From Thermodesulfatator indicus DSM 15286 (GTDB taxonomy: Bacteria; Desulfobacterota; Thermodesulfobacteria; Thermodesulfobacteriales; Thermodesulfatatoraceae): a DNA stretch of 64,000 nucleotides. The notes beneath the pieces were generated by a model. It worked only from the letters and a program-made list of their open reading frames with translations. It was not told the origin of the DNA and ran no database searches. Below are positions 8,626 to 45,651 of this stretch, one piece after another (the stretch's first letter is position 1; the number at the start of each line of letters is the position of its first letter). Position numbers and translations under genes: made by a program. The stretch lies in NCBI RefSeq assembly GCF_000217795.1, contig NC_015681.1:124001-188000 (forward strand), in the 5' to 3' direction.

Positions 8626-11600
8626 TCATTTACGACTTACCAAAGCGCGAACTTTTTCCAGGAACACATAAAAAAGCGGCACATAAACAAGGGTAAGAAT
8701 GGTACCCACCAGCAGTCCACCTATGGCCACCACCGCTAGAGGCGAAAGGCGCTCAAGACCTATAGCCCGTTCAGCGGCGATAGGGATCATGCCCGTAATA
8801 GTGGAAAGGGCGGTCATCAAGATAGGCCGCGTTCTGGCCCGAATAGCTCCTTCAACGGCTTCTTTCAAATCTTTTCCTTTTTGGCGGGCCTTTTCAATAA
8901 AGTCAAGCAACAAAATAGAATTGTTAACCACCACACCTGAAAGAAGGATCATGCCCATGGAAGCTGGCATACAAAAATGCCTGTCCACCAGCAAAAGCCC
9001 CCAGATCGCCCCAATTAGAGCCAGAGGAATAGCCACCATGATAGTTATCGGATGTCTAAAAGACCTGAAAGTAGGCACCAGAGAAAAATAAAGCAAAATC
9101 AACGAAAGGATAAGGGCATCTTTTAACCTGGCAAATGATTCCTTCATCGGCTTTACTTCGCCTTCCTGCGAAAGTTTATAGCCTGAAGGGACTTTCAGAT
9201 CAGACAAGGCCTTCCCTACCCCTTCTTGGATATGGCTTATGGCCGTCTTACGACGATAACCCAGCACATCAATAACCGGAGAGAGATTATCCCGCACAAT
9301 GACACTTCTTACGAAATCTTTTTCCACCGTGGCTAATTCTTTCAAGGGTACGGGACCTTTAGGCGTAGGCACCATGTAATTTAAAAGTGACTCAAGAGAG
9401 TCCCTTTCGTAGGGCAAAAAGCGCACTTTAATGACGTAAGGACGCTCTTCTGGAACCCTCCAGAAGGAAGCCTTGCCACCAGAAAATCCCATGGCCATTT
9501 CACGGGCAAGAATTTCTGGAGTAAGGCCGTAAAACGAAAGCTTTTCAAGATTGGGTTTTATCAAAAACTCCTGGCGGTCAAAATCCCAGGTATGAGAAAG
9601 ACTCACCAGCCCAGGCACTTTGTATAAGCGGTTTTCTATTTCTAGAGCCAGTTTGTGAAGAATACGAGGATCACTCCCTGAAACCATTACATCAACTGGT
9701 GCGGCAATAGAAGAAAGAGGAGTGGCACCAAACTCAAACACGTGTAAGGTTTTAAGGCCTGGTATCTTTAAGAATTCGCTGTAAAGGTGATTTTCTATCT
9801 GCCAGATATTTTCTTTACGGTGAAAACGATCTACAAAATGTACGGTTATCATTCCCTGTCTGGGCGTGCGATCAGCACCAAAACTTATTACCCCAGGCTC
9901 TGACCCCATGACCGTGGCCATACGAATAAAACCCGGATAATTTTCTAGGGTATTTTCCATTTTACGGATTATTTTTTCCGCTTCTTCAATAGGAGTATTG
10001 GGAGTGACTTCAAAAGATATCTTTACGATCCCTGTATCCATGGGAGGCATGAGGTCTCGCCCCACCAGAGGCATAATCTTTTTCACACTGATAACCATGA
10101 GAAGCACCGCCGGCATGATAAGCACTACCTTGTAGCGCACCCCAAACCTAAAGAGCGTCAAATAAAACGCCCTGAATTTTTCAAGAAATCCTTCGCTTAC
10201 ACGGGAAAGAAATTTTTCAAACCGCGAGGGTTCGCCAGCTCGTAACACATAGGGCGCAAGAAGCGGGATTATAGTTACCGAAACGATGTAAGAAGCCGTA
10301 AGCGCCATGGTTAACACCATGGCCAGGGGCCGCAAAATCTTTTCCACGTATCCACCGACAAACATGATGGGAATAAGCACAAGGATAGTGGTAAAAGTGC
10401 CAGAGAGGTCGGCCAGCATTATCTCCTGCGTGCCTGAGATAGCGGCTTGCCTGGGAGAAAGGCCCTTTTCGCGCAGATGGCGTTCTATATTTTCGGCTAC
10501 TACTATGGAGTCATCAACCAAAAGACCCACAGCCAGAATAACCGCAGTCATGGTAACAATGTTCAACTCCAGGCCAAAGAGCTTCATTAGAAAAAAGGTG
10601 AGAAAATAAGTTACAGGAATAGACACCGCCGCTAAAAGTGTGGCCCGAACTCTGGCCATCAAAAGAAAGATAACCGCTACCGTTAGAATAATAGCATCAC
10701 GCAAGGCTCCTATAAGGTTAGAAAGTGAGGTCTTAATAATATTTTTCTGGGTATCAGCTATAGAAAAAGAAAGCTCAGGATACTGGACCTTAAGTTTTTT
10801 TAAAGCCTTTTCCGCGGCCTCAATAGTGGCCATGACGTTGCCATTCTCGGGCCTTAAAACATTTAGCCCAATGGCTGGCCTTCCGTTGCCGTGAAAAAGG
10901 CTATTTCTATCTTCATGAGAAAGAGTTATACGGGCAATGTCTCCCAGACGAATGGATTTGCCTTTTAGCGGAATAGTAAGGTCTTTAAGTTCCTCTGGCC
11001 GGGCAATTTCTCCAGGAATCTTTATAAAGATTTCTTGCTCATTAGACCTTATAATGCCAGCAGGCCAGTTGGTATTTTGTGAGGCAAGGGCGGCGGCCAC
11101 GTTAGCCAGGCTCAGCCCATAACGAGCCAGGGTGTCTCTTTCTATTTCAACCCTTACCTCTGGCTGATAGCCTCCAAAAATTTCTACGTCTCCAATCTGG
11201 GGGACATTTAAAAGGGAGGGCTTAATGTATTCCTCGGCCAAGCGTCTTACTTCTGAAAGAGTAAGATTAGAGCCTTCTTTAGGGCTTATAGCCACGGTCA
11301 TCACCGGATTGGTGACGTCACTGACCTTGAAAATACGTGGAGGTAAAAGGCCTCTTGGTAAGTCACTGAGAATGCGGTCAAGGGCTGAAGAAACGTCAAC
11401 CTGAGCGGCAGAAAGCCCTTTTTCGTATTCAAACTCTACTGAGAGCACACCTACGCCGTCTCGAGACACAGAACGCACTTTGCGCACCAGAGAAAGGGTA
11501 GCCAGCTCTTTTTCAACAGGGATTACTACTTCCTTTTCTACGTCTTCAGCCGAAGCCCCGGGCAAAGAAAGCACTACCACTATTTGGGGATAGTTGGCGT

Positions 11601-11715
11601 CTGGAAAAAGGTTAAGAGGGAGCTCCCTGAAACTCTTAATCCCTAAAACTACCCCCAGGAACAAGAGGGCAAGTATTAGATGAGGCCATTTAAGGTAACG
11701 TTCTACAAAGGTCAT
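8626..11715 (-). CDS. RND-family efflux pump, inner-membrane subunit
   Basis: This 1029-residue transporter has the RND layout of two repeats, each with one transmembrane helix, a large periplasmic loop and a bundle of five or six helices. Visible signatures are the N-terminal FPDANYPQIVVVLSLPGAS, AVILAVGLLVDDSIVVAENI (proton-relay Asp pair, about residue 400) and GMILLSGVVVNNSILLLDFI in the second half. The family pumps drugs, metals or lipids out by proton exchange through an outer-membrane channel. The sequence resembles AcrB/MexF more than CusA, but the substrate cannot be read. It is the last gene of the operon, 10 bp after the cupin. Confidence 0.93.
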   Translation of the reverse strand: MTFVERYLKWPHLILALLFLGVVLGIKSFRELPLNLFPDANYPQIVVVLSLPGASAEDVEKEVVIPVEKELATLSLVRKVRSVSRDGVGVLSVEFEYEKGLSAAQVDVSSALDRILSDLPRGLLPPRIFKVSDVTNPVMTVAISPKEGSNLTLSEVRRLAEEYIKPSLLNVPQIGDVEIFGGYQPEVRVEIERDTLARYGLSLANVAAALASQNTNWPAGIIRSNEQEIFIKIPGEIARPEELKDLTIPLKGKSIRLGDIARITLSHEDRNSLFHGNGRPAIGLNVLRPENGNVMATIEAAEKALKKLKVQYPELSFSIADTQKNIIKTSLSNLIGALRDAIILTVAVIFLLMARVRATLLAAVSIPVTYFLTFFLMKLFGLELNIVTMTAVILAVGLLVDDSIVVAENIERHLREKGLSPRQAAISGTQEIMLADLSGTFTTILVLIPIMFVGGYVEKILRPLAMVLTMALTASYIVSVTIIPLLAPYVLRAGEPSRFEKFLSRVSEGFLEKFRAFYLTLFRFGVRYKVVLIMPAVLLMVISVKKIMPLVGRDLMPPMDTGIVKISFEVTPNTPIEEAEKIIRKMENTLENYPGFIRMATVMGSEPGVISFGADRTPRQGMITVHFVDRFHRKENIWQIENHLYSEFLKIPGLKTLHVFEFGATPLSSIAAPVDVMVSGSDPRILHKLALEIENRLYKVPGLVSLSHTWDFDRQEFLIKPNLEKLSFYGLTPEILAREMAMGFSGGKASFWRVPEERPYVIKVRFLPYERDSLESLLNYMVPTPKGPVPLKELATVEKDFVRSVIVRDNLSPVIDVLGYRRKTAISHIQEGVGKALSDLKVPSGYKLSQEGEVKPMKESFARLKDALILSLILLYFSLVPTFRSFRHPITIMVAIPLALIGAIWGLLLVDRHFCMPASMGMILLSGVVVNNSILLLDFIEKARQKGKDLKEAVEGAIRARTRPILMTALSTITGMIPIAAERAIGLERLSPLAVVAIGGLLVGTILTLVYVPLFYVFLEKVRALVSRK

Positions 11716-11725
11716 CTAGCTTTCC

Positions 11726-12040
11726 TTATAGTGGCGGAGCAATGGCTACGAGGATACGCATGTCAGTTTTGGCTTCCACACCGTGAGGTTCATTTATGGC
11801 ACAAATAAAAATGTCGCCAGCCTTAGCCGGAGTTTTGGCTCCTTCGGCCCCTAGAAAATAGCCTTCACCTTCCAAAACAAGAATGCTTAACTCTCCCTCA
11901 ACCGAATGCGAATGCACAGGAAACTCTTCACCGGCTTTTATATTGAAATTAATGATCCGAAAATACGGAGAATCATGAACCAAAAATTTGTTAAGGGCCT
12001 TGTCAAATACACGGGTCTCGTCAAGATTAAATACTTTCAT
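11726..12040 (-). CDS. Small cupin-domain protein
   Basis: A 104-residue single-domain cupin. The metal-binding motifs are partly kept: FPVHSHSVEGELSILVLEGEG (two His and a Glu) and CAINEPHGVEA (His). Such proteins bind small molecules or act as sugar-like sensors or simple enzymes. It is embedded in an efflux operon, overlapping the membrane-fusion gene by 14 bp and ending 10 bp before the pump gene, so it is made with the pump. A role in sensing or modifying the pumped compound is inference only. Confidence 0.8.
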   Translation of the reverse strand: MKVFNLDETRVFDKALNKFLVHDSPYFRIINFNIKAGEEFPVHSHSVEGELSILVLEGEGYFLGAEGAKTPAKAGDIFICAINEPHGVEAKTDMRILVAIAPPL

Positions 12041-13139
12041 CGTGGCCTCCTTTAATTGGAATAACTTTTTGGCCAGGGTAAAGTCTTAGAAGCAGCCCTG
12101 GATCTCCCACTACTACCTGATCGCCTTCATTAAGCTTTCCTGAGGCAACCACCTGGCCTTTGCTCTGGCCAAGAACCCTTACAGGGATGAACTTAAGCCT
12201 GCCTTTTTCTACCACGTAAACTCCCTGGGACTTGCCAGGCACCAGGGCTTTGGCCGGCAAGAGAAGCCCTTCAAGATTGGCCAAAACCAGATCCACTCCT
12301 AAAGAGGCCCCGCTTGGCAGGGAAAAAGGCCTCTTCTTTAGCCTTATCTCCACGGTAGCCAGGGCTTCTTTAGAGACCGCTGGATAAACCTTATAAACCG
12401 CGGCGATTTTTTGCCTGTCCCCAAGCGAAATATAGACCCTGTCACCAGGAACGATTGAGGCCGCCTTCTCCTGGGGTATGTTTACCAAAAGACGATAACC
12501 TGCTTTAGGATCTTCAAGAGTTATAAGGGGAGCTCCAGGGGTAGCCATGTCACCTGGATTTTTAAAACGCCTGGTAACTACTCCAGAGAAGGGAGCCTTA
12601 ATAAAGGCATAAGAAAGATTAACTTTAGCCGCTTCTATTTCCTGCTTAAGCTGTTCTACCCTTGCGAGAGCGGCTTGATAGGCAGCTTTAGAAAGGTCAA
12701 AGGCCTCCTGGGAAATAGCTTCATGCTCAAGAAGCTTTTGGTTGCGTTCAAAAATACCCTTACGCACTAAAAGTTCTGTTTGAGCCGAGGCCAATTGTGT
12801 TTTAAGAACGCCGAGCTTGGCTTCAATATCCTTGGCCTCTATCTCAACCAAAAGTTCTCCCTTTTTAACCTTATCCCCTTCATATTTGGTAATCCTTAAA
12901 ATGTAGCCAGATATCCTGGTGGCGATGTTAGCCTCGTGCACAGGGGTGATAGTTCCCAGATAATGTTCACGTATTTCAAGCGTACCCTTAGTTACCTTCG
13001 CTACTTCAACGGGTAAAGGGATTTTCTGGGGCGGTTTAACACTTTGGATAGTCTCTTTTTTGAGTTTGACCACTCTAAAAGCCCCGAAAATCAAAAGAAA
13101 AACCACCAACAATATTAGAAAAGGTTTAAGCTTATTCAT
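12027..13139 (-). CDS. RND efflux periplasmic adaptor (membrane fusion protein)
   Basis: A 370-residue HlyD/AcrA-type adaptor that links the inner-membrane pump to the TolC channel. The order is an N-terminal anchor helix (FLILLVVFLLIFGAF), a split biotinyl-lipoyl domain (RISGYILRITKYEGDKVKKGELL and SYAFIKAPFSGVVTRRF), an alpha-helical hairpin between them (about residues 105-165), and beta-barrel and membrane-proximal domains. The start overlaps the tolC-like gene end by 8 bp. Confidence 0.92.
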   Translation of the reverse strand: MNKLKPFLILLVVFLLIFGAFRVVKLKKETIQSVKPPQKIPLPVEVAKVTKGTLEIREHYLGTITPVHEANIATRISGYILRITKYEGDKVKKGELLVEIEAKDIEAKLGVLKTQLASAQTELLVRKGIFERNQKLLEHEAISQEAFDLSKAAYQAALARVEQLKQEIEAAKVNLSYAFIKAPFSGVVTRRFKNPGDMATPGAPLITLEDPKAGYRLLVNIPQEKAASIVPGDRVYISLGDRQKIAAVYKVYPAVSKEALATVEIRLKKRPFSLPSGASLGVDLVLANLEGLLLPAKALVPGKSQGVYVVEKGRLKFIPVRVLGQSKGQVVASGKLNEGDQVVVGDPGLLLRLYPGQKVIPIKGGHDESI

Positions 13140-14439
13140 TTAAAAACTCCTTGGCTATTTGCCCGGTGGCCAGTTCAAAGGAAATAGTGGCGGTGTTAAG
13201 GTCATAATAGGCCTTTAGAAGGTTTGATTTAGTGCGCAACCAGGCTTCCTGGGCCTGCAATAAGTCATTGATAGAACCCGCTCCGGCCTGATAGCGGAAA
13301 GCCTCTCTCTTGTATGCTTCTCTGGCAAATTCTTCAGCGGCTTTAAGGCGGTTCACCTGGCTTTTGGCGGAGTTAATCCGGCTAACAGCTGAAATTATCT
13401 CCTGTGAAGCGGCAAGTCTCAGACTTTCAAGTTCTTCTTTAGCGGCAAGCCAAAGGGCCTGTTTTTCTTTGACTAGATTTCTTTTTACCCCGGAATCAAA
13501 TATTGACCAGTTTAGCCGCACACCAGCCACCCACACTTCTTCATCGTTATTAAGTCCGGCCCCTGCCCGCCTTCCGTAAGAAGAAAAGGCAGAAAGAGTT
13601 GGCAGATATTCCCTTTTGGCCCGCGAAATAGCGGCTTCCGCCTGTTTAACCTTAAGTTTAGCGGCTTTGACATCAGGCCTCTGGTCTAAAAATTTATCGG
13701 CTGAAAAAGGATTAAAGTCCAGTTTTTTAGAGGGCTCTAGCGCAGAAGACACTTCAAAACTGGTATCCTCAAGACCAATAACCAGAGCAAGAAGCTTTTT
13801 AGCCAGGCGCAAGTTGTTTTCACTGGCCAAAAGTAAGGCCTTTTCTTCTTCTAAGGCCCTTTTAAAGTAAAGGAGATCAAGTTTGGCAATTTTACCCACC
13901 TGGTATTTTAAACTGGCATCACGGTATTGCTTTTCAAGCAGGCGGTAAAGTTCTCTCTGGGCCTTAGCAAGATTTTTAAGATAGAGCACCTGAAAGTAAA
14001 GTTGCTTTACATTGGCTATAAGATCTTCAGTTGATTGCCTTAAAAGGCTTTGCCTAATATTGATTTCAAGGTCTTTAATCTTTACTTCCTGAGCTACCCG
14101 CCCACCTTCGTATAAGGGAAAAGTGGCCTCAACCTGCCAGAAATAAATATCCCGACTAAAGGGCGGGAACTGGCCTGGCCCTTTTATAGAAGTTATAGTG
14201 ACCGGATCATTATGGCGTTCGGCTTGAAGAATAAGATTAGCCTTTAACCAGCGGTTAGCGCTGGTAGCTTTTTTGGCAAAACGAGAAGCTTTCAAGGCGT
14301 CTTTCTGGGCCTTTATTGAAGGATGATGTTTAAGCGCAAGCCTTATAGCTTCTTCTAAAGAAAGACTTTTTTGGGCCATCCCTGTGAGTGGGCTCATCAG
14401 GATAAAAATTAGGCTTAAAAAGCATATCGTCCTTTTCAT
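13132..14439 (-). CDS. TolC-family outer-membrane efflux channel
   Basis: A 435-residue exported protein with a signal peptide (cleavage near GMAQ) and the internally duplicated outer-membrane efflux protein fold: LSLEEAIRLALKHHPSIKAQ at the start of the mature chain, two long helical repeats, and YRYQAGAGSINDLLQAQ-like sequence in the second repeat. It forms the trimeric exit duct of the pump. The ATG overlaps the regulator's stop codon by 4 bp, so the regulator and channel are translationally coupled. Confidence 0.92.
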   Translation of the reverse strand: MKRTICFLSLIFILMSPLTGMAQKSLSLEEAIRLALKHHPSIKAQKDALKASRFAKKATSANRWLKANLILQAERHNDPVTITSIKGPGQFPPFSRDIYFWQVEATFPLYEGGRVAQEVKIKDLEINIRQSLLRQSTEDLIANVKQLYFQVLYLKNLAKAQRELYRLLEKQYRDASLKYQVGKIAKLDLLYFKRALEEEKALLLASENNLRLAKKLLALVIGLEDTSFEVSSALEPSKKLDFNPFSADKFLDQRPDVKAAKLKVKQAEAAISRAKREYLPTLSAFSSYGRRAGAGLNNDEEVWVAGVRLNWSIFDSGVKRNLVKEKQALWLAAKEELESLRLAASQEIISAVSRINSAKSQVNRLKAAEEFAREAYKREAFRYQAGAGSINDLLQAQEAWLRTKSNLLKAYYDLNTATISFELATGQIAKEFLNE

Positions 14440-15071
14440 GCCAAGCCCTCGATGCCCTTGAGAGAAAAAGAAACAACATGCTCTATCAAAAACTTTTCAA
14501 AGTGAGCATCAAACTTTTGGCCGGTAACTTCTTGCACCTTGGGGCGAGCGAAATTGAAATAAAGAATCTGAGCTAGAATGCTAAGCACGGCCATGCGCAT
14601 TTTTTCAGGAGGAAGAGAAGGCAAGTAAATTTTTAGTGCTTCTTCAAAAGAGACTAGAAAAGGATTTAACGCTTCTTCCACGATAAGTTTTAAAATACTA
14701 GACGGCCTAACCATCTCCCTTGCCAGAAGTTTAAAGTGAATTTCACGTTCTTCTTCTGTTAGTGGCCCGGAAATTATGGCTTTAGCAAAAGCTCTAATCA
14801 CTCCTTCTAAGTTAGGGTCATCATCCTTGAGATTTTTTTCAAAGGTTTCTTTAAGGCGTTTGGCCCGTTCTAAAAAACGAGTTTGGAAAACTTCAAGATA
14901 AAGACCTTCTTTAGAACCAAAGTAGTAATTTATAGCCCCGAGGTGTACTTTGGCCTGGCTGGTTATCTCTCGCACACTCACCCCCTTAAACCCCTTTTCG
15001 GCAAAAAGTCTCTCAGCCACCTCAATGAGCCTTTCTTTGGTGCCGAATTTATCCGAAAATTTATTTTTCAT
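14436..15071 (-). CDS. TetR-family regulator of the efflux operon
   Basis: This 211-residue repressor has an N-terminal TetR helix-turn-helix (TKERLIEVAERLFAEKGF, VSVREITSQAKVHLGAINYY) and an all-helical ligand domain resembling the CerR/DUF1956 type. It is the first gene of the pump operon. I chose the ATG at 15071 rather than an upstream in-frame start at 15161 because the HTH begins normally here and a good promoter with an inverted repeat lies immediately before it. The promoter places the transcript start at or next to the ATG, so translation may be leaderless. Autorepression is the expected mode. Confidence 0.88.
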   Translation of the reverse strand: MKNKFSDKFGTKERLIEVAERLFAEKGFKGVSVREITSQAKVHLGAINYYFGSKEGLYLEVFQTRFLERAKRLKETFEKNLKDDDPNLEGVIRAFAKAIISGPLTEEEREIHFKLLAREMVRPSSILKLIVEEALNPFLVSFEEALKIYLPSLPPEKMRMAVLSILAQILYFNFARPKVQEVTGQKFDAHFEKFLIEHVVSFSLKGIEGLA

Positions 15072-15107
15072 ACAAATGTATGTATCAAACACTTGTTCGA
15101 AAGTCAA
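15069..15107 (-). promoter_or_regulatory. Promoter and probable TetR operator of the efflux operon
   Basis: On the minus strand, TTGACT (15102-15107) and TACATA (15079-15084) are separated by 17 bp. The -10 region overlaps ATACATACATTTGTATG, which contains the inverted pair ATACA/TGTAT. The known AcrR operator of Escherichia coli begins with a similar TACATACATT sequence. The operator reaches into the start codon, consistent with autoregulation by the first gene. Confidence 0.55.
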
Positions 15108-15187
15108 GAAAAAATTTTTAGCTGAGCTTGGGACAAGCAAAGCGGTACCGAACAGGATCAAAGCGCTTTGCAGGAAGTTCTTTTAAG

Positions 15188-15223
15188 AATCCTAGATTCC
15201 CGCTTGAGCGAGAATCTAGGATT
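15188..15223 (-). terminator. Long hairpin ending the six-gene operon
   Basis: AATCCTAGATTC (15188-15199) pairs perfectly with GAATCTAGGATT (15212-15223), and an inner CGCT/AGCG stem extends it to about 16 bp. It starts 7 bp after the TPR gene stop, between that gene and the efflux promoter. No clear T tract follows. It probably ends or protects the 3' end of the upstream operon. Confidence 0.6.
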
Positions 15224-15229
15224 AATTGG

Positions 15230-15838
15230 TTATTTCTTTAAATAGTTTTTGGCCACTATGTTTTCTGGAGACAAAAGAAGAACCTGACGAAAAACACGCC
15301 TGGCTTCGTTTTGTTTCCCTTGCCACCATAAATCCTGGCCAAGTTCTACTAAAAATAAAACGCTAGTAGGATAGCGCTGCAACATTTTTCGCATTACTCG
15401 CTCAGCGTGATCCGCCTTGTTTTGAAGACGCAAAGCTATGGCTAATCGCAAATTTCCGTAATAATTATATGTATCTTCTCTTATTAGCCTTCTCATAAGC
15501 TCTTCTACTTTAGGCCAGTTTTTCTGAGCCATATATGGCAATGATAATCCTAAAAGAGCTTCAAAAGAACTTGGTTTTATGCTTAAAGCCTTTTCATAGT
15601 AATCAATTGAATTTCGATATTTCCCAGCCAGATAATAAAGCCATCCTAGTCTCAAATTAACCAGATAAAATTTTGGATATTTTTGATATACAGGCAAAAG
15701 AGCATCAATAGCATCTTGATAAGAGGCCATTTTTTCGTAGCGATATGAATCACGAAAAGCCTGCTGAACATTTAAAGCTAAAGCCGAAGAGCCCATCAGA
15801 AAAAAGGTTAAAACGAGAGTAAATAGAACTTTTTTCAT
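15230..15838 (-). CDS. Periplasmic TPR-repeat protein
   Basis: A 202-residue protein with a signal peptide (cleavage near ALALN) and about four tetratricopeptide repeats, clearest in YRNSIDYYEKALSIKPSSFE and NEARRVFRQVLLLSPENI. These repeats form a helical scaffold for protein contacts. It is the last gene of the six-gene operon, 17 bp after the outer-membrane protein, and is likely a periplasmic partner of that protein or of the peptidase domain encoded upstream. No catalytic motif is present. Confidence 0.8.
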   Translation of the reverse strand: MKKVLFTLVLTFFLMGSSALALNVQQAFRDSYRYEKMASYQDAIDALLPVYQKYPKFYLVNLRLGWLYYLAGKYRNSIDYYEKALSIKPSSFEALLGLSLPYMAQKNWPKVEELMRRLIREDTYNYYGNLRLAIALRLQNKADHAERVMRKMLQRYPTSVLFLVELGQDLWWQGKQNEARRVFRQVLLLSPENIVAKNYLKK

Positions 15839-15855
15839 AGTAACCTCCTCAACTT

Positions 15856-16773
15856 TTAAAAACTACCGCCTAGGCTTAAAGTTACAACTGTTTGACCTAC
15901 ATTATCATTAAAACCTGAATGTTTAAGCCACTCTTGAGACAAATTAAGAGCAACTCTTAACTTAGTAGTAACCTTACGACCTACCTCAAAAGAAAAACCA
16001 CCCAAATATTCGTCAGACAAGTTATAAACAACAAATCCTTCATTTTTTACAGCAAAAACCTGTTTTCCAATCCAGGCCGAAATTTTAAAATCAGTCAATC
16101 CTATATAAGTGCTAAAATACTGTTCAAAAGAAAAATTATTTTTATCAAAGGAGCCAACATAATCGTTAAGAAGGATAAAATAAAAACGGGATTCACCATA
16201 AATTCTTTTACCTAAAGCCGCAAAAAAGTAGCCAAAACGAGGGCTAAACTGAAATACTCGCAAATCATTACTGGCAACAGAAGCAGAGCTTTTCTTTTTA
16301 TTAGACGTGGTACCTTTAGCAACAGTATCTATAGAATTATAAAGAGAATAAGCAAACTCCAAACCAATATTCCAGCTATATGGTTGATAATAAAGCCCTT
16401 TGAAATAAATAACTTTACCATTATCAGTGAGCTGATCATCAGTGTTAATATAATGAAAACCAACCTTAAAAACATGATTTTTGAGAATTTGGTCAGTATT
16501 AGAATAGAGAACAGTAAAATCAGTCTGGGACAAATCGCTCTCTGTTTTATAATTTATCTTTGTCTGAGACAAAGCTAATTCTAAAGAATGAATATAACTA
16601 TTCTTAAAGGCCAAATAACCCGTAGTAGACCATCCATTATCTTTTATTTGAGAATTCTCAAAGTTAATGTAAGTCGTATATAAACTGGCGTAAGTATTCC
16701 AATCTTGAGCCCATACTTTTCCTGTAAACGATACTCCCAAAATTATGAGAAATACTAAACACAACTTTTTCAT
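15856..16773 (-). CDS. Predicted outer-membrane beta-barrel protein
   Basis: A 305-residue protein of no family I recognise. It has a signal peptide (cleavage near KVWAQ) and a mature chain rich in alternating aromatic/polar strands such as YASLYTTYINFENSQ, EFAYSLYNSID and RIYGESRFYFILLNDYV. It ends in an aromatic-terminated strand (VGQTVVTLSLGGSF), the usual barrel-assembly signal. A short Lys/Ser-rich stretch near residue 160 would be a surface loop. The start overlaps the stop of the transporter-peptidase gene by 4 bp. It may be the outer-membrane passage for the product of the operon. Confidence 0.7.
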   Translation of the reverse strand: MKKLCLVFLIILGVSFTGKVWAQDWNTYASLYTTYINFENSQIKDNGWSTTGYLAFKNSYIHSLELALSQTKINYKTESDLSQTDFTVLYSNTDQILKNHVFKVGFHYINTDDQLTDNGKVIYFKGLYYQPYSWNIGLEFAYSLYNSIDTVAKGTTSNKKKSSASVASNDLRVFQFSPRFGYFFAALGKRIYGESRFYFILLNDYVGSFDKNNFSFEQYFSTYIGLTDFKISAWIGKQVFAVKNEGFVVYNLSDEYLGGFSFEVGRKVTTKLRVALNLSQEWLKHSGFNDNVGQTVVTLSLGGSF

Positions 16774-18965
16774 AAAACCCTCCTTAAAGAAAATTTCTTA
16801 TCATTACTAATAAGGGTAACTTCTTGTACAAAACCTTTTAAAGGATCTAATATTACCTGAGTTTTTATTTCTTCTCCTCCCTGGGCAATCTTTCCTTCTA
16901 TTCGGTTCGGAGCAGAAAATTTATAAATACCCTTAATTTCTGCCAGACGATGATTAAAAGAGGCTAAAAAGGTATAAAGGGCTCGTTTCAACCGGCTGTA
17001 AAAGGTCTCTAAAGGTAAAAAATCTTCCCAGATAAGGCCTTTCTGGTACACCAGTGGCATTCTAGGAAAAGCTAAAAACAACATGCGAAACCACACGGCG
17101 TTTCCGTCTTGGCGCAAGAAATAAAAAGTGCCTTCAAACTTATTAAAATAAAGTGAGTTGTGATTTTCGGCCAAATAATATGTGCCATCGGTATCCATCT
17201 GAACTTTAAAATTCACCTGTTTTTGAGGAACGTCATTTACCAGAAACTCAAAAATAATTTCCTGGTCAAGCACTAGTGACATCATGTTTTCCATGGCCTT
17301 ATCTGGATAAAGACCCTGGACCTGTTCTCCCTCTTCAGGGATATCATTGGCTTTGTAAATCAAATCGGTGTCTTTTAAAACAGCGTAATGTACAAAACTA
17401 AACGGTTGCGTAGGAGCCCCAAGTTCTGGGGTAAGCTGTACTTGAACGTGAAGATGGGGTTGAGGAGAATAACCTGAGCTTCCGCATTGCCCTATAATTT
17501 GCCCCTGTTCTATCCATTGTCCTTCTTTTACCTTGACAGAGCCCTTCCTCAGATGAGCCAGTAAAACATAAAAGCCCCTTTCATCGTAAATCAAAACGTA
17601 ATTCCCCCAATTTTGGGTTTCGTTTACGGCCCCTGGGGGATTGTCTTCTATATCATTAGCTAGACTTACAACACGCCCCCTAACTGGAGAAAGAACAGGT
17701 TTGCCAAAACAATAGTAATCATCAAGATGGGCTCCTTCACCGCGATAAGTCCGGCCTTGGTCGTCAGTGATTACAAAATCAACGGCATAACGCCATATTC
17801 CTTTATGGGTCCAGGGACCATCAAAAGACTGCCATACCGTCCACTCTCCGGCCACAGGTAAACTTAAAGTACGCAATGTTCCGGGGAATCTGGCTAAATA
17901 AGACAAATAATGGTCTAAAGTCCGTTCAGGCGATCCTCTATAATAAGAGGCCAATAAGGGAAAACCTGCCAAACCCAAAGTATATAACAAGGAAAGAACC
18001 ACCACGTTAAAAGGTAAAGTAAAGGAAGGGATACCGTACTGGGCCCAAAAAAAAGTAGCAGCATCTAAAAGGAAAGGAGAAATGGCCACTGATAAGGCCG
18101 CAAGAACATAACTTCGGGGACTGGGGATAAGAAAAACCCCTCCAATAGCCATGGCTATTAAGCTAAAATTAAAGGCCCCTAAGTTACTAGCGGCCTGATA
18201 AATAGAACCTTCAAGAAAAGACAAAATTAAAAGGCCTAAAAAATAACCTCCCACTGCCAGAATAAATAAAATACGGGAAGCGAAAAAAATAACGGTTAGA
18301 AAAATAAGTCCGCCTATAAAATGGGGACAAAAAAGCAAAGCTCCTAAGGATTGTGTTAACCCTAAAAGCCAGATGGGGAGATGGTCAGCAATATCTGTAA
18401 GAAATGGCCACCAGGGTTTAAATTCGGAAAACAAGAGATTGCTATACTTATAAGAGGCCAAATATATAGCTGTACTTATTAAAACAAAAGGGATGTTAAG
18501 TACTGGCAATCGGAAAAAAGAATAGAAAATATTAGCTAATCCAAAAGTAACTATAAAGGTCAAAATTCCAGCGGCAACTATTAAGAAAAAGCTAAAAAAA
18601 GAAAGCTTAAACAAATAGCCTATAGATAGTCCTACTAACAAAGGGTTATAAGTATAAAAACCGGAACCGCGAAATATTTTTTTCAAACCCAAAAACCTGG
18701 CAAACTCATAAGCCGCTAAAACACATAAAAGACCAGATAAACCAATATTAGGATAAATAAAAGTAGCGGCTAATAGCAATAAACCTAGCCAAAAGTTCTC
18801 AAAGAAAAAAATCTCAGAATAACTGTTGGCTATGGTTCTAAAGTAACCCCAAAAAGAACGAAGTTTCTTTAAGATCAGATTATTAACAGTCTTTAAGTGT
18901 TTTTGTTCTTCTAAAGTTATTTCTTTTTGGGCGAGCCTTTGATTGCTTTGTAAATTTACTTTCAT
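16770..18965 (-). CDS. Urea-transporter-family membrane domain fused to an M23-like peptidase domain
   Basis: The 731-residue product has two parts. Residues 45-335 hold roughly ten membrane helices in two repeats with hallmarks of the SLC14/UT urea channels: YNPLLVGLSIG, then in the second half SLGALLFCPHFIGGL, FASR and NLGAFNFSLIAMAIGGVF. Residues 360-570 resemble M23 zinc peptidases, with THKGIWRYAVDF as first ligands, PVLSPVRGRVVSL, LLAHLRKGSVKVKEGQ and the HLHVQVQ His pair. About 160 C-terminal residues are unassigned. UT proteins pass urea or similar small amides; M23 enzymes cut peptidoglycan bridges or glycine-rich peptides. It sits 7 bp after the decarboxylase gene. Confidence 0.78.
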   Translation of the reverse strand: MKVNLQSNQRLAQKEITLEEQKHLKTVNNLILKKLRSFWGYFRTIANSYSEIFFFENFWLGLLLLAATFIYPNIGLSGLLCVLAAYEFARFLGLKKIFRGSGFYTYNPLLVGLSIGYLFKLSFFSFFLIVAAGILTFIVTFGLANIFYSFFRLPVLNIPFVLISTAIYLASYKYSNLLFSEFKPWWPFLTDIADHLPIWLLGLTQSLGALLFCPHFIGGLIFLTVIFFASRILFILAVGGYFLGLLILSFLEGSIYQAASNLGAFNFSLIAMAIGGVFLIPSPRSYVLAALSVAISPFLLDAATFFWAQYGIPSFTLPFNVVVLSLLYTLGLAGFPLLASYYRGSPERTLDHYLSYLARFPGTLRTLSLPVAGEWTVWQSFDGPWTHKGIWRYAVDFVITDDQGRTYRGEGAHLDDYYCFGKPVLSPVRGRVVSLANDIEDNPPGAVNETQNWGNYVLIYDERGFYVLLAHLRKGSVKVKEGQWIEQGQIIGQCGSSGYSPQPHLHVQVQLTPELGAPTQPFSFVHYAVLKDTDLIYKANDIPEEGEQVQGLYPDKAMENMMSLVLDQEIIFEFLVNDVPQKQVNFKVQMDTDGTYYLAENHNSLYFNKFEGTFYFLRQDGNAVWFRMLFLAFPRMPLVYQKGLIWEDFLPLETFYSRLKRALYTFLASFNHRLAEIKGIYKFSAPNRIEGKIAQGGEEIKTQVILDPLKGFVQEVTLISNDKKFSLRRVL

Positions 18966-18972
18966 AAATCAG

Positions 18973-20325
18973 CTAGGACTTTTTTAATATAAGCCTTTCG
19001 GGAAGACGTTCTCTATCTACTACATCATTTAAGTTTTCAGCTTCTCTAATAACGTCAACTTGGCCGTCCTCCCCTACTAGAACTACCGCCGGACGATAAC
19101 GAATAAATTGCATCCATTGAGTAACGTTATAAGCTCCAACAGGAGAAAAAATAAGACGGGTACCTCTAGGTAAAGGAGGTAACTGGACATTTTCGGCAAC
19201 TACATCTATATTCATACAAAGGGGGCCATAAATTACACAGGGTTCTGCTGGGCCCGAAATATCTTCTTCAAGTTCTATTTTAAAATTATACCAAAATGCT
19301 GTAAAAAGAATATTAACTCCAGCATCTACTACATAAGAACGAGTACCATCTGGCAAGCGTTTGCTAGCATGTACAGTAGTAATCAAAAAACCAGCTTCAT
19401 CTACTATAGCTCTACCTGTTTCTAAAATAAGTTTAGGAAAGTCATTAGGTTTAAGTTTTGATAACAAAGTATCACAAATAGCTTCGGCAAAATCTTCTAA
19501 AGGAGGAACAGCCACTTCTGGTGACAAATAAATTCCTTTCAACCGATTACGAGAAGGGAATCCGCCTCCGATGTCTAAATATTCTATTTTTAAGTCAAAA
19601 TTATCTTCAAGTTCATAAGCGAAATCTACCATCTTTTCTATAGCTTTGGCATACGCTCTAGGCTCAAGCAAAAAAGTACCCAAATGACAATGTAGGCCAT
19701 TTAATATCAGTTTACCACCTGAAACTAACCTTTTAGCAGCATCTAAAGCCTGGCCTGATTCCAGATTAAAACCAAAACGCGTCCACTGAGGACTTATCCC
19801 CGTATCCATATTCAGGCGAATACCTACTTTGATAGGCTGTCCCAATTCCTCGGCAATTTCTTCTAAATCATAAATCTCGTCAAAATGGTCAATATTTATA
19901 ATCGCTCCTTCCTGAACCGCTGTCTTAAGGGCTGATAAGGGCTTGTATGGACCATTAAAAATTATTTCAGAACCAGGAACACCTAATCTGCGAGCCTTTT
20001 CATATTCAAACTCCGAGACAACCTCTGCTGTCTCTCCTTCCTGATGTAGGATGGCACAAATAGCATCTAGATAATTAGTTTTATAAGACCAGGAAAACTG
20101 GACATTTGGGTATCTCGTAGAAAACATTTGATAAATTTGACGATATTTCTCTCTTAATCGCCTTTCAGAAAAAACAAAAAGAGGAGAGCCAAATCTAGAA
20201 ACCAAGTCGCTAATAGGTACTCCGTCTATTTCTGGACGCAAATGGCGACCATAAACAGAACCAAATTTATTGCTAAGTCCTACTTGAACCTTTTTTATGA
20301 GTGGCTTTTCGTAAGGTTCTTTCAT
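18973..20325 (-). CDS. PLP-dependent (fold type III) amino-acid decarboxylase, DAP decarboxylase-like
   Basis: A 450-residue enzyme of the alanine-racemase-fold decarboxylases. The PLP lysine lies in FSWSYKTNYLDAI, the pyridoxal-stacking region in GLHCHLGT, the phosphate site in IEYLDIGGGFPS and LILETGRAIV, and the catalytic Cys-x3-Asp of the partner subunit in YGPLCMNIDVV. The family decarboxylates meso-diaminopimelate, ornithine, arginine or related amino acids. The divergent N terminus and the neighbours (PqqD-like, ATP-grasp, transporter) argue against an ordinary lysA role. Its substrate may be an amino acid that the adjacent ligase attaches. It lies 17 bp after the ligase gene. Confidence 0.85.
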   Translation of the reverse strand: MKEPYEKPLIKKVQVGLSNKFGSVYGRHLRPEIDGVPISDLVSRFGSPLFVFSERRLREKYRQIYQMFSTRYPNVQFSWSYKTNYLDAICAILHQEGETAEVVSEFEYEKARRLGVPGSEIIFNGPYKPLSALKTAVQEGAIINIDHFDEIYDLEEIAEELGQPIKVGIRLNMDTGISPQWTRFGFNLESGQALDAAKRLVSGGKLILNGLHCHLGTFLLEPRAYAKAIEKMVDFAYELEDNFDLKIEYLDIGGGFPSRNRLKGIYLSPEVAVPPLEDFAEAICDTLLSKLKPNDFPKLILETGRAIVDEAGFLITTVHASKRLPDGTRSYVVDAGVNILFTAFWYNFKIELEEDISGPAEPCVIYGPLCMNIDVVAENVQLPPLPRGTRLIFSPVGAYNVTQWMQFIRYRPAVVLVGEDGQVDVIREAENLNDVVDRERLPERLILKKS

Positions 20326-20342
20326 AACCGTTCTCCTTTAAA

Positions 20343-21383
20343 TTAAGTTTCACCACGCGTTACTATTTTCTGGAAAACATCCATATCAGTAACCAAATCG
20401 TAAGTGTAACGTATATAAAGACGCCCAGCTTCGTATTCAGAATGGGTCTCAACAGGTTGACCTAATACCTTTTTGACCATTCTTGCTGGAAGATTAATAC
20501 CCGCTCCAGTGGCAAAGTATAACCAAGCTGGAAAACGAGGGTTTATCTCAATCAGATAAATACGATCCTCAGTGGCTATACATTCAAGTTCAAAAGCTCC
20601 TCGCCAGCCAGTTTCACGCAAAAACTTCTGCGATGACTCAAGTAAAACATCATGTTTTATGGTTACTCCTGTCCATATCTTGCCAAGAGAAGTGATCCAG
20701 AGTTTTTTGATGGCCATCATACCTAAAGAACCACCTTCTCCATCGCCTACACCTACTACATTTAATTCCTCACCTTGAATGACTTTTTGAACCAGAACCG
20801 GATATCCCCATTCTTCTACGATTTTATAGAAAACTCCTTCGGCTTCGGCAAAAGTGTGCACCCGATAAGCCTTATAAAAAAGGCCTTTTATCATAGCGGG
20901 AAAGCCTATGCGATCAAGCGCTTTCATGAGGTCTGAATATGAAGAGACTTGTTCTGTTGGAGGAACAGACAGGCCAAGGCGAGGGGCCATTTCCATTAAT
21001 CGCTGTTTAGAACGTAGCTCAAATTGTTCCCAGGTAGGAAGAAAGGTCTTGATCCCTCTAGATGACAATTCCTGTTCCCCTTTAATGAAAAGGGGAAGCT
21101 CAGCATCTAAGGTGGGAATTACCACCTGAAGACCAGTAACATCTTGAATATAAAAAAGTCTGGCCAAATAATCTTCTTCAGCGCTTGAGGGATAGGGCAT
21201 AATAAAAGATTTATCAACCAGCCAATCAAGATATATTCCTGGCTCCATAGCATCATAAGCCAGGCCTAAGGCCTTTATTGTTAGAGAAGAGTCTTCTTTT
21301 AAACTTCTGATGACCCCTAAACCCGGGCCTGGATTATCAACAGCGTTAATGCCTGAAACGGCCACTACTATTTCTTCAGACAT
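20343..21383 (-). CDS. ATP-grasp ligase (carbamoyl-phosphate-synthase-like)
   Basis: A 346-residue ATP-grasp enzyme. Residues 1-110 are a pre-ATP-grasp Rossmann-like domain (IVVAVSGINAVDNPGPGLGV). Residues 115-310 hold the ATP-binding domain: RSKQRLMEMAPRLGLSVPPT, FPAMIKGLFYKAY, VQKVIQGEELNVVGVGDGEG, and the metal-binding FELECI plus YLIEINPRFPAW. Such enzymes couple a carboxylate to an amine or thiol via an acyl phosphate. It lies between a PqqD-like gene (11 bp) and a decarboxylase gene (17 bp), suggesting that it modifies an amino acid or peptide. The substrate is unknown. Confidence 0.85.
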   Translation of the reverse strand: MSEEIVVAVSGINAVDNPGPGLGVIRSLKEDSSLTIKALGLAYDAMEPGIYLDWLVDKSFIMPYPSSAEEDYLARLFYIQDVTGLQVVIPTLDAELPLFIKGEQELSSRGIKTFLPTWEQFELRSKQRLMEMAPRLGLSVPPTEQVSSYSDLMKALDRIGFPAMIKGLFYKAYRVHTFAEAEGVFYKIVEEWGYPVLVQKVIQGEELNVVGVGDGEGGSLGMMAIKKLWITSLGKIWTGVTIKHDVLLESSQKFLRETGWRGAFELECIATEDRIYLIEINPRFPAWLYFATGAGINLPARMVKKVLGQPVETHSEYEAGRLYIRYTYDLVTDMDVFQKIVTRGET

Positions 21384-21394
21384 AAAAACTCCCT

Positions 21395-21631
21395 TTAAAT
21401 AAGTTTATAGTGCCGAAGCTGCTCTAAAAAATCCGTTACATCACGTTCAGCAGTTTCGGTATCAACTTCAAAATGTTCTGGCAATTCGTTTATTATTTCT
21501 TCAGGAGTTTTACCTTCTTTGAGTTTTTGAAGGATCCATAAGCCTACACGATTGGTGGTGAAGCTATTGCCAGTGACAGGATCAAAAATAAAGCCTTCTT
21601 CATTTATAGCTAAACGTTTTAATTTATCCAT
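21395..21631 (-). CDS. PqqD-like protein (peptide-recognition fold)
   Basis: A 78-residue protein with the PqqD pattern: GFIFDPVTGNSFTTNRVG, then LKEGKTPEEIINEL, then ERDVTDFLEQLRHYKLI. PqqD-type domains are winged-helix folds that bind leader peptides and present them to modifying enzymes. This is the first gene of the six-gene operon. No obvious precursor-peptide gene lies within the operon or in the 275-bp gap upstream, so either the peptide is encoded elsewhere or this member binds another partner. AAGGAG precedes the ATG. Confidence 0.8.
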   Translation of the reverse strand: MDKLKRLAINEEGFIFDPVTGNSFTTNRVGLWILQKLKEGKTPEEIINELPEHFEVDTETAERDVTDFLEQLRHYKLI

Positions 21632-21663
21632 GAGAAACTCCTTGACAAAACTTGGCTATAGTC

Positions 21664-21691
21664 ATAATAACTTTCAACCTTTTTCTAGCAA
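21664..21691 (-). promoter_or_regulatory. Candidate promoter of the six-gene operon
   Basis: On the minus strand, TTGCTA (21686-21691) and TATTAT (21664-21669) are spaced by 16 bp, about 32 bp upstream of the PqqD-like start. No operator-like palindrome is visible beside it. Confidence 0.4.
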
Positions 21692-43818: not shown

Positions 43819-45405
43819 TTAATAACTGAGGTTCCGCATTAATTGGGCTAACGAAACCTTAAAAATTCTGGTTTCCCCTTCCCCTTTAAAAAGGTCTCCT
43901 TCTACTACAGCTATATAAACATTGCCTTTAAAACTAAACACCGCCTGGACACTACCCTGAAAACTTTGCCGCCAGAAAAAGAGTTGATAACCTTCGCGAG
44001 TATAAAAAAGCACGCCCACTGTAGAACGTTTAGCTCCTGAAACAATGCCTCCAAGGAGGCCAAATTCGTTATAGGGAATCAAAACTCTTGGCCACTCCTG
44101 CCACTTAACAACCCACGGATTAGGCCAGATATAAATCTTCTTGGGAGTTTTTATTGAGGTCTCTGGATAATCCATAAAAACATATTGAATTCCTGCACCA
44201 AATTTTACACTGGAACTCCAAAGTCTCTTTTTTCCCTGATAGATTACTAGTCTGCGTCCTTCATTATAAAAACCTGTTTCTAATTTCTTATCCAAATTGA
44301 GATCAGTCCAAAAGGCTCCGAATATTCTAAAACCCGAAGGTATTTTTATACTTTTTTCTTTCTTTAAGTCTTTTCCATCTATTTTGAAAGTAAAGACTCC
44401 GTAGCCATAAAAATTTTCACTATCAAAACTCTGGCCTATAAGCGTTTCCTTAATACCGTCCGAATTAAAATCAAAAAATCGCAAGATATAAGGTGAGTCT
44501 TTGGTAACTTTGACAAAATTTTTGCCAGTAAATTTTATAATTCGGGATTTAACACGTTTCCCGTCAAATATGTTTAAAGCTATTAAACCATCTGGACCAA
44601 CGGAAAAGTTTATTAAATTACCAAAGCCATGGTAGGCATAAACAAAGTGTTCGCGACCTTTCAAACGCTGCAAATAAATCTTTCGTTTAGTGAGAGAAGC
44701 TACATAAATGGTCTGACCAAGAGGTAGCACATCTAGGTGATAAACTATCTCTCGTAAACGCCCTATTAATTGGTAAGGACGTGCTTTTTCTAATGGCCTT
44801 GATTCCTGATATGCGGGTTGCGCAGAAAGGGTGTAAACCCCCAGAACATGGCCATCGCTATAAAAATAGAGAAAGTTATTTTCAGCCACAAAAAGTACTC
44901 TTTGAGTCCCTTTAGGAATAGCTTTACGAGAAGTGACTTTTTCGTAAGGCTGCCATTTTAGCTTGGGATAGCTAGCCCTTAATCTCTCGTAAATAGGAAA
45001 AGCCTTGCCAGTTAAATCAAAAAAGAAGGCCCTAACCCCTGCCAGGCGTTCAGCTCTGGCCCCGGTTGATATGGTACAACCTGGCGAAAGGCAAAAAACT
45101 TTTAATACCGAATAGGTTGGAAAGACCTGAATAATTTGGGCTCGGGCCGCTGGTTTTTCCTGATAACCTAGAATTTTTCCAGTATCAGGATCGACTATCG
45201 GTTCGCCTTGTTGATAAATCAACCACCATTCTCCTACCTTTAAGCCTTTGTTGGTACCAACATTTAAGAAAAACTGCCCTTCCTGGGCTATGACTTTGGC
45301 GGAAAGAGGAGAAAAATCTTTGAATAATTGATCTATAGATGGAGCAGCCAGAGATATCTTGGTAAAGGCAAAAATACCCACCAGCAAGATAAAAATTTTT
45401 CTCAT
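43819..45405 (-). CDS. Exported protein with FG-GAP-like repeats
   Basis: This protein has 528 residues from the ATG at 45405, which has a GGGAGGAC site and opens a clean signal peptide (MRKIFILLVGIFAFTKISLA). An in-frame extension to 45504 would enter the MITE and is not used. Residues 25-110 look like a small beta domain (VIAQEGQFFLNVGTNKGLKV). The rest is predominantly beta and includes FDFNSDGIKETLIGQSF and FWTDLNLDKKLETGFYN, Asp-rich loops like those of FG-GAP/integrin-type propeller repeats that bind calcium. A beta-propeller in the periplasm or outer membrane is likely. Family and function not recognised. Confidence 0.7.
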   Translation of the reverse strand: MRKIFILLVGIFAFTKISLAAPSIDQLFKDFSPLSAKVIAQEGQFFLNVGTNKGLKVGEWWLIYQQGEPIVDPDTGKILGYQEKPAARAQIIQVFPTYSVLKVFCLSPGCTISTGARAERLAGVRAFFFDLTGKAFPIYERLRASYPKLKWQPYEKVTSRKAIPKGTQRVLFVAENNFLYFYSDGHVLGVYTLSAQPAYQESRPLEKARPYQLIGRLREIVYHLDVLPLGQTIYVASLTKRKIYLQRLKGREHFVYAYHGFGNLINFSVGPDGLIALNIFDGKRVKSRIIKFTGKNFVKVTKDSPYILRFFDFNSDGIKETLIGQSFDSENFYGYGVFTFKIDGKDLKKEKSIKIPSGFRIFGAFWTDLNLDKKLETGFYNEGRRLVIYQGKKRLWSSSVKFGAGIQYVFMDYPETSIKTPKKIYIWPNPWVVKWQEWPRVLIPYNEFGLLGGIVSGAKRSTVGVLFYTREGYQLFFWRQSFQGSVQAVFSFKGNVYIAVVEGDLFKGEGETRIFKVSLAQLMRNLSY

Positions 45406-45477
45406 AAAAGTCCTCCCAGGTTTTAATTGCCTAAACTTTAGGCCAAAACTCATGATTAGGCAAAAGTTTTTTAAAAC

Positions 45478-45651
45478 GAGACCTTTGCAAAATATCTTAT
45501 TCAAGAGACTGCTTCGCCCATACGGGCTCGCAGTGACACCGTAAGATAGTCATTGCGAGGCTGCGCCCAGCAGCCGAAGCAATCCTTGTCGCGAGGCGAC
45601 ACAGTCGCCGTGGCGATCAATCTATGTTTTCCTTAATCTTGCAAAGATCTC
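45478..45651. mobile_element. MITE-like element, copy B
   Basis: This 174-bp element starts GAGACCTTTGCAAAATATC and ends with the inverted partner GAGATCTTTGCAAGAT (read on the minus strand). It is flanked by TAAAAC on both sides (45472-45477 and 45652-45657), a probable target duplication. The interior matches copy A almost exactly through the first 60 bp and then carries an extra segment of about 34 bp (TTGTCGCGAGGCGACACAGT...). No coding sequence is present. Confidence 0.82.

Follow-up and report, generated by a model that had tools for sequence, protein, structure and literature searches.

In butirosin biosynthesis, the ATP-grasp protein BtrJ forms part of the BtrI-BtrJ-BtrK unit. Rhizoferrin can be reached by two alternative routes, from free putrescine or through citrylornithine, and the N-citrylornithine decarboxylase FigC belongs, together with SbnH, AcsE, MccE and BtrK, to a clade unrelated to polyamine making (PMC7857480). 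Here we analyse a six-gene operon of Thermodesulfatator indicus DSM 15286, which encodes a PqqD-family protein, an ATP-grasp ligase, a pyridoxal phosphate (PLP)-dependent decarboxylase, a urea-transporter-fold (UT) channel fused to an M23 peptidase domain (UT-M23), an outer-membrane beta-barrel and a tetratricopeptide repeat (TPR) protein. The operon lies on the minus strand at 15230-21631 of the window, by which we mean the whole 64,000-nucleotide stretch analysed (124001-188000 of a genome that is one contig of 2,322,224 bases), and the open reading frame (ORF) coordinates confirm the place given for it in an earlier note on this DNA. Its gene set and order are conserved, its genes are co-inherited, its catalytic residues are intact, and its biosynthetic half is replaced in some genomes by non-homologous enzymes; the barrel and UT folds are predicted from structure models. 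We tentatively propose that the operon makes a small amide and moves it across the envelope.

The six genes recur as a unit across phyla

A scan for UT-M23 in one genome per species gave 322 coding matches, and 80 loci were kept. At BLAST sensitivity, and with many contigs ending early, 62 of the 80 loci show the decarboxylase and ATP-grasp genes immediately upstream of UT-M23, accompanied by PqqD in 55; downstream, the TPR protein is present in 56 and the barrel in 50, and all six genes occur in 38. These loci come from Thermodesulfobacteriota, Aquificota, Campylobacterota, Verrucomicrobiota, Lentisphaerota, Planctomycetota, Gemmatimonadota, Ignavibacteriota, Calditrichota, Bacteroidota, Pseudomonadota, Myxococcota, Deferribacterota and candidate phyla, although some taxon labels of metagenome-assembled genomes (MAGs) in the set, such as Klebsiella and Akkermansia, look unreliable. 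Relatives of the window genome are found in Thermodesulfatator and Thermosulfurimonas. When the window is taken together with 16 order-level relatives that carry UT-M23, the decarboxylase lies beside UT-M23 in all of them, and the other operon genes are present wherever the locus reaches. Because the same gene order recurs across phyla, the arrangement is far beyond chance; the possibility raised in the earlier note, that the genes would prove separate in all relatives, thus falls away.

The decarboxylase gives a second view of this linkage. At E <= 1e-100, and with the centre genome (picked for having the operon) included in each count, genomes with this enzyme make up 7 of 338 in the Verrucomicrobia phylum, 26 of 296 in the Melioribacter phylum (~9% of sampled species) and 37 of 349 in the Thiomargarita phylum (~11%); many other phyla have it in scattered members. 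In 64 further decarboxylase loci from these sampled phyla, ATP-grasp is adjacent in every case (64/64), with PqqD in 56 and UT-M23 in 61; wider views show that the barrel and TPR genes come next in most. One genome of the Melioribacter phylum has the decarboxylase twice with equal score, near both ends of a contig (G851:C1:2568-3917 and 3733984-3735333), perhaps an assembly overlap.

Across 105 loci, pairwise distances correlate at 0.93 between decarboxylase and ligase, and at 0.92 and 0.90 between each of these and UT-M23, values to which shared descent alone contributes. In the collection scan, the decarboxylases of most carrier phyla are 63-72% identical to that of the window, which suggests one defined product. 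On the decarboxylase tree, the Thermodesulfobacteriota require at least 4 changes, so the unit has likely spread horizontally. No plasmid-borne decarboxylase matched at >= 60% identity, the best among the matches listed being ~31%. Two divergent operon versions, with UT-M23 proteins ~46-48% identical (L033 versus L087 and L099), occur in Thermodesulfatator and its order, which suggests separate acquisitions.

Unrelated or distant enzymes replace the biosynthetic half in some genomes

The envelope genes are also found with a different biosynthetic half. In four Shewanella genomes and at locus L100, the order is UT-M23, (barrel), TPR, an OKR_DC_1 decarboxylase, an ATP-grasp protein and a C45 acyltransferase/hydrolase, and in Shewanella an additional barrel and TPR follow C45. 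The variant decarboxylase (865-916 aa) is a fold type I enzyme of the lysine/ornithine/arginine family, non-homologous to that of the window, and the variant ATP-grasp protein (~510 aa) is PRK06524-like while scoring below the PRK06524 model cut-off. No window-type decarboxylase was found in any of these five genomes, and no such ATP-grasp or PqqD in the subset checked. Genomes G345 and G362 carry parts of the Shewanella-type layout as far as their contigs extend, which brings to seven the genomes in which the envelope genes are kept and the biosynthetic half is replaced, usually with C45 present. No genome checked carried the replacement cassette alongside the PqqD/ATP-grasp pair.

We take this substitution by unrelated or distant enzymes, in which the two reaction types are preserved and the envelope genes are left in place, as the strongest clue to the function of the operon; it suggests that decarboxylation plus amide ligation is what is conserved. 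Both non-homologous routes lead to one envelope module and should yield identical or closely similar compounds.

Where UT-M23 stands alone (L053, L090, L096, L097 and L112), the decarboxylase and ATP-grasp genes are encoded elsewhere in the genome, as is PqqD where checked; neither enzyme was found in the 1.2-Mb MAG G101. Separately, five loci from genomes of the Shewanella class (L159-L163) carry the OKR decarboxylase with the PRK06524-like ATP-grasp and/or C45 and have no UT-M23 nearby, possibly representing an unstudied pathway of their own.

Active-site residues favour a substrate with a blocked distal end

The decarboxylase is not LysA. It scores 221 bits against TIGR01048, below the cut-off of 297.9, and a separate LysA encoded elsewhere in the genome scores 543 bits, for which reason we rejected this role for the operon enzyme; complementation of lysA is unlikely on such scores. 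The nearest solved relative is the N-citrylornithine decarboxylase 7kh2, and the corresponding model, NF041039, gives 221 bits against a cut-off of 500.

The catalytic residues are intact. Among 127 distinct homologues, the PLP lysine K82 and residues E302, R305 and C370 are invariant, and each residue of the motif C370-M-N-I-D is found in at least 124. Met371, present in 126 of the 127, stands where diaminopimelate decarboxylase (DapDC) sequences have the Glu of CE; the acidic LysA residue (CES/CET) is absent. In ornithine (ODC) and arginine (ADC) decarboxylases and in DapDC, the residue after the catalytic Cys is acidic and binds the side-chain amine of the substrate, and in FigC it is M355 (PMC7857480). 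The specificity helix of FigC carries T327, T330 and Y331 where other enzymes have Asp or Arg, and H357, R387 and N389 are proposed to contact citrate (PMC7857480). In the operon family, T342, W345 and Y346 on the specificity helix are near-invariant, and the three citrate-contact positions are I373, Q403 and mostly M405 (or L). Judged by residues, the enzyme therefore has the features of the alanine-racemase-fold clade unrelated to polyamines: no Asp or Arg on the specificity helix and a non-acidic residue after the catalytic Cys. Since Met371 and T342/W345/Y346 replace charged residues and the citrate contacts are lost, a substrate with a blocked distal end that bears no charge is favoured. 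Citrulline, whose uncharged ureido group would fit a urea-type channel, is neither supported nor excluded.

The ATP-grasp ligase retains the expected metal-binding E/N residues; across 148 homologues, conservation of E265, E267, E279, N281, K126 and K166 is at least 97%.

A predicted channel, periplasmic partner and outer-membrane barrel

The UT-M23 protein comprises a UT domain (residues 43-329), an M23 domain (~365-530) and a C-terminal beta-rich region (~533-731). Pfam UT matches with 233 bits over 2-290 of its 292 positions and Peptidase_M23 with 55.7 bits. The structure model (predicted local distance difference test, pLDDT, 90.9) has a complete UT fold by its VIA match to dvUT (Z 33) and a LytM-type M23 domain (Z ~14) whose fold resembles LytM/Csd/DipM. 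The Zn ligands H387, D396 and H471 are present in 128 of 128 homologues, and, at the catalytic-His positions, H504 and H506 are kept in every row that extends that far; at the pore Thr130 position of UT, the operon family has Ser or Asn (157) by alignment mapping.

The two ends of the UT domain are on the same side of the membrane. In characterised UTs, the termini are cytoplasmic, and the charge pattern of UT-M23 is weakly in favour of the same arrangement. Because the UT-fold termini share a side that would be the cytoplasm by UT homology, the M23 domain may be cytoplasmic rather than an envelope processor. The earlier note, which described the fusion, did not consider this placement.

The barrel model has 14 strands, a mean pLDDT of 89, an N-terminal signal helix and a C-terminal Phe, and its nearest folds by Foldseek/VIA are CymA (Z 20.3), OmpG (Z ~19) and FadL. 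With a signal peptide, an even strand number and a C-terminal aromatic residue, it resembles an outer-membrane porin. Homologues of the TPR protein have a hydrophobic N-terminal signal, consistent with a periplasmic location, and the protein is kept in most loci, including the Shewanella-type variant. In some loci (L067 and L249), TPR and barrel form a single protein.

Proposed function of the operon

We suggest the following sequence of events, which we hold tentatively. The ATP-grasp enzyme would join a carboxylic acid to the distal (side-chain) amine of a diamino acid, for example ornithine or lysine, or leave the distal end uncharged in some other way. The PLP decarboxylase would then strip the alpha-carboxyl from the blocked amino acid, as FigC/FslC does on N-citrylornithine, to give a mono-acylated diamine-type amide. 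This product would exit through the UT-fold channel, with the attached M23 zinc domain trimming or gating it; passage through the outer membrane would fall to the periplasmic TPR protein and the 14-strand barrel. PqqD would be an accessory that positions or senses substrate or product. In the Shewanella-type layout, the same envelope genes would be served by the fold-type-I decarboxylase, the PRK06524-like ATP-grasp protein and the C45 acyltransferase/hydrolase.

Several points weigh against this proposal. UTs let neutral molecules of the size of urea through passively, and the size or charge of an acyl-diamine may exceed what such a channel admits. If the UT domain takes its usual orientation, M23 is placed in the cytoplasm, which is unusual and leaves a secreted-peptidase role unexplained; a cytoplasmic M23 fits no simple secretion model. 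Transport could also run inward. The residue-by-residue comparison with FigC is read from an alignment of ~30% identity, and the FigC residue matched to W345 is Thr. Finally, L238, L241 and L243 have no UT-M23 within the <=1.5 kb of downstream sequence available. A more ambitious version, in which a UT with a cytoplasm-facing M23, a TPR chaperone and a 14-strand porin make up an undescribed trans-envelope export line that serves interchangeable biosynthetic cassettes and carries a diamine-type amide in >12 phyla, is on the doubtful side.

PqqD and alternative readings

One alternative, which we consider unlikely, resembles the making of a ribosomally synthesized and post-translationally modified peptide (RiPP). 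PqqD would present a precursor encoded elsewhere, the ATP-grasp enzyme would add an amino acid or a ring, and the decarboxylase would act on a peptide-bound residue, after which M23 would remove the leader and UT, TPR and barrel would export the product. The PqqD family supplies RiPP recognition elements in known systems, the operon protein matches Pfam PqqD with 62.1 bits (cut-off 23.4), and PqqD directly precedes ATP-grasp in most loci; moreover, two members of the clade of FigC, MccE of microcin C and BtrK with its carrier-bound Glu, show that such enzymes can act on tethered residues (PMC7857480). However, the operon protein is below every system-specific NCBIfam PqqD cut-off. Beside the operon, ~80 loci held no conserved short ORF that could be a precursor peptide, in agreement with the earlier note, which saw none, and no conserved graspetide-type precursor with core repeats next to ATP-grasp, although a precursor may lie at a distance. 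PqqD was not found in the Shewanella-type variant (subset checked), and the pore of a UT is much too narrow to pass a peptide. In addition, TetR_N-PqqD fusions of 263-272 aa, with PqqD as the C-terminal part, lead the operon in five Pseudomonadota loci (L254-L258, e.g. L255:4973-5791), which unusually ties PqqD to a transcription regulator. Because a TetR-type DNA-binding domain is fused to PqqD in this way, a role as sensor or adaptor is no less likely than peptide recognition or presentation. Of the decarboxylated conjugate put forward in the earlier note, the metabolite part, here an amide, holds in outline; the lack of a conserved short ORF, an unconserved PqqD C-terminus and the TetR fusions all speak against the peptide part.

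It is also improbable that the system works in uptake, with barrel and TPR capturing a nitrogen compound, UT importing a urea-like molecule for use by the cytoplasmic enzymes. UT channels are bidirectional, the known ones import urea, and the barrel is porin-like (OmpG, CymA). Yet an ATP-grasp ligase and a decarboxylase are a building, not a breaking, pair, the operon contains no urease or amidase, and the replacement variant carries a ligase too.

Tethered synthesis in the manner of BtrI-BtrJ-BtrK has a small chance of being right. The ATP-grasp enzyme would load an amino acid onto PqqD or another carrier, decarboxylation would occur there, and the amine would then be transferred. The three-part layout of small protein, ATP-grasp and alanine-racemase-fold decarboxylase is the same, and BtrK decarboxylates carrier-bound Glu (PMC7857480). 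PqqD, however, is not an acyl-carrier fold, and we rejected it as an acyl carrier, since its C-terminus is not conserved and it has no evident attachment site.

Modification of peptidoglycan or envelope, in which a diamine-type group would be joined to the wall, M23 would remodel peptidoglycan and TPR and barrel would anchor the outer membrane, has a similarly slight chance: the M23 domain keeps its metal and catalytic residues in a LytM/Csd/DipM-like fold, and Selenomonas and Veillonella have diamine-modified peptidoglycan that anchors the outer membrane, but an M23 on the cytoplasmic side, as UT homology would place it, may not reach the wall, Pfam detects neither an S-layer homology (SLH) domain nor any other that binds the wall among the operon proteins, and the decarboxylase pocket is unlike those of lysine/ornithine decarboxylases.

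Operon layout, DNA signals and neighbouring genes

The ORF coordinates agree with the earlier description of six genes on one strand, separated by gaps of 11, 17, 7 and 17 nt and, between UT-M23 and barrel, a 4-nt overlap. The domain content named there is backed by Pfam for five proteins and by the structure model for the barrel (Table 1).

Table 1. Features of the operon, in window coordinates
Feature	Position	Strand	Basis
PqqD-family small protein, 78 aa, first gene	21395..21631	-	Pfam PqqD; AAGGAG ahead of ATG
ATP-grasp ligase, 346 aa	20343..21383	-	Pfam ATPgrasp_Ter above cut-off
PLP decarboxylase (type III, alanine-racemase fold), 450 aa	18973..20325	-	Pfam Orn_Arg_deC_N + Orn_DAP_Arg_deC
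UT-M23 (urea-transporter-fold channel fused to M23), 731 aa	16770..18965	-	Pfam UT + Peptidase_M23
Outer-membrane beta-barrel, 305 aa	15856..16773	-	No Pfam family; structure model
TPR protein with Sec-type signal, 202 aa	15230..15838	-	Pfam TPR_2 and others
Hairpin 3' of last gene, 16-bp stem, 4-nt loop	15188..15223	-	Folding energy versus shuffles

Five of the six start codons have a Shine-Dalgarno-like purine motif (AAGGAG, GGGAG or GAGGAGG) ahead of them; that of UT-M23 has only a weak one. The 36-nt hairpin reported at the operon end is borne out by folding (-26.4 kcal/mol, z = -5.7, with none of 200 shuffles equally good); no U-tract follows it, and it is a possible 3' end or processing site. 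The promoter candidate, a sigma70-like site at 21691 scoring 9/12, was rejected, as 17 such sites occur in the region and 17.1 are expected by chance. No known RNA family or riboswitch was found in window 12.0-24.6 kb, and the PADLOC anti-phage defence models gave 0 matches for the six operon proteins.

The flanking genes S1, TetR and TolC did not turn up when the 22-kb locus of T. autotrophicus, a sister species, was examined; we therefore dropped TetR and TolC as members of the system, and the operon appears as self-contained as the earlier note described it. Just downstream (window 8626-15161, minus strand) lies a separate efflux operon that encodes an AcrB-like resistance-nodulation-division (RND) pump, a membrane fusion protein, a TolC-like protein and a CecR/TetR-type regulator. 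Elsewhere in the window, a 561-aa ORF with a TTG start (43819-45504, minus strand) has no Pfam match at E <= 1e-5. In another genome, a Peptidase_S74 (endosialidase chaperone) protein is encoded 3' of the operon (L067:5015-6913); it has relatives in 12 other loci and is a possible surface partner.

Comparison with known systems

The operon is common, being found in more than a dozen phyla, is inherited as a unit and looks unstudied. No paper describing the six-gene set was found in open-licence full text, with subscription papers outside the search; the earlier note likewise knew of no named pathway with this gene order. We regard the system as new, since no known system with the same gene set was found and it falls outside its nearest relatives by their defining tests, even though the single parts all come from known families. 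Identifying the product would add a common bacterial metabolite, give a role to the many UT-M23 proteins for which nothing but the domains is known, and perhaps reveal a new type of envelope exporter.

Each part nonetheless has a recognisable counterpart. PqqD, above the Pfam cut-off, is like RiPP recognition elements, but differs from RiPP PqqD systems in its NCBIfam scores, in having no precursor beside the operon and in the TetR fusions found elsewhere. The UT domain shares the complete fold of dvUT (3k3f) and UT-A/UT-B; unlike them, it is fused to M23 and a beta-rich region, has Ser/Asn at the pore Thr130 position and is accompanied by no urease. A periplasmic TPR protein paired with an outer-membrane barrel, sometimes in one protein, recalls the exopolysaccharide exporters PgaA, BcsC and AlgK/AlgE, whereas the 14-strand barrel here is nearest CymA/OmpG/FadL and the operon has no glycosyltransferase or synthase. 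Butirosin BtrI-BtrJ-BtrK likewise sets a small protein, an ATP-grasp and an alanine-racemase-fold decarboxylase together as a unit, but the small protein of the operon is PqqD-like rather than an acyl carrier, BtrO/BtrH-like enzymes are lacking and envelope genes are present.

The rhizoferrin pathway of Francisella (FigA/FslA plus FigC/FslC) differs in that its ligase is an NRPS-independent siderophore (NIS) synthetase rather than an ATP-grasp enzyme, its decarboxylase keeps the citrate contacts lost here (I373, Q403, M405), and, in place of a siderophore receptor or major facilitator superfamily (MFS) exporter, the operon has UT-M23, TPR and barrel. It is like the operon in its decarboxylase, the nearest solved relative, 7kh2, having the same CM motif, and in the order of steps proposed here, with ligation on the distal amine first and decarboxylation second. 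Its two routes to one product also parallel the two biosynthetic cassettes that we propose to serve the same envelope module.

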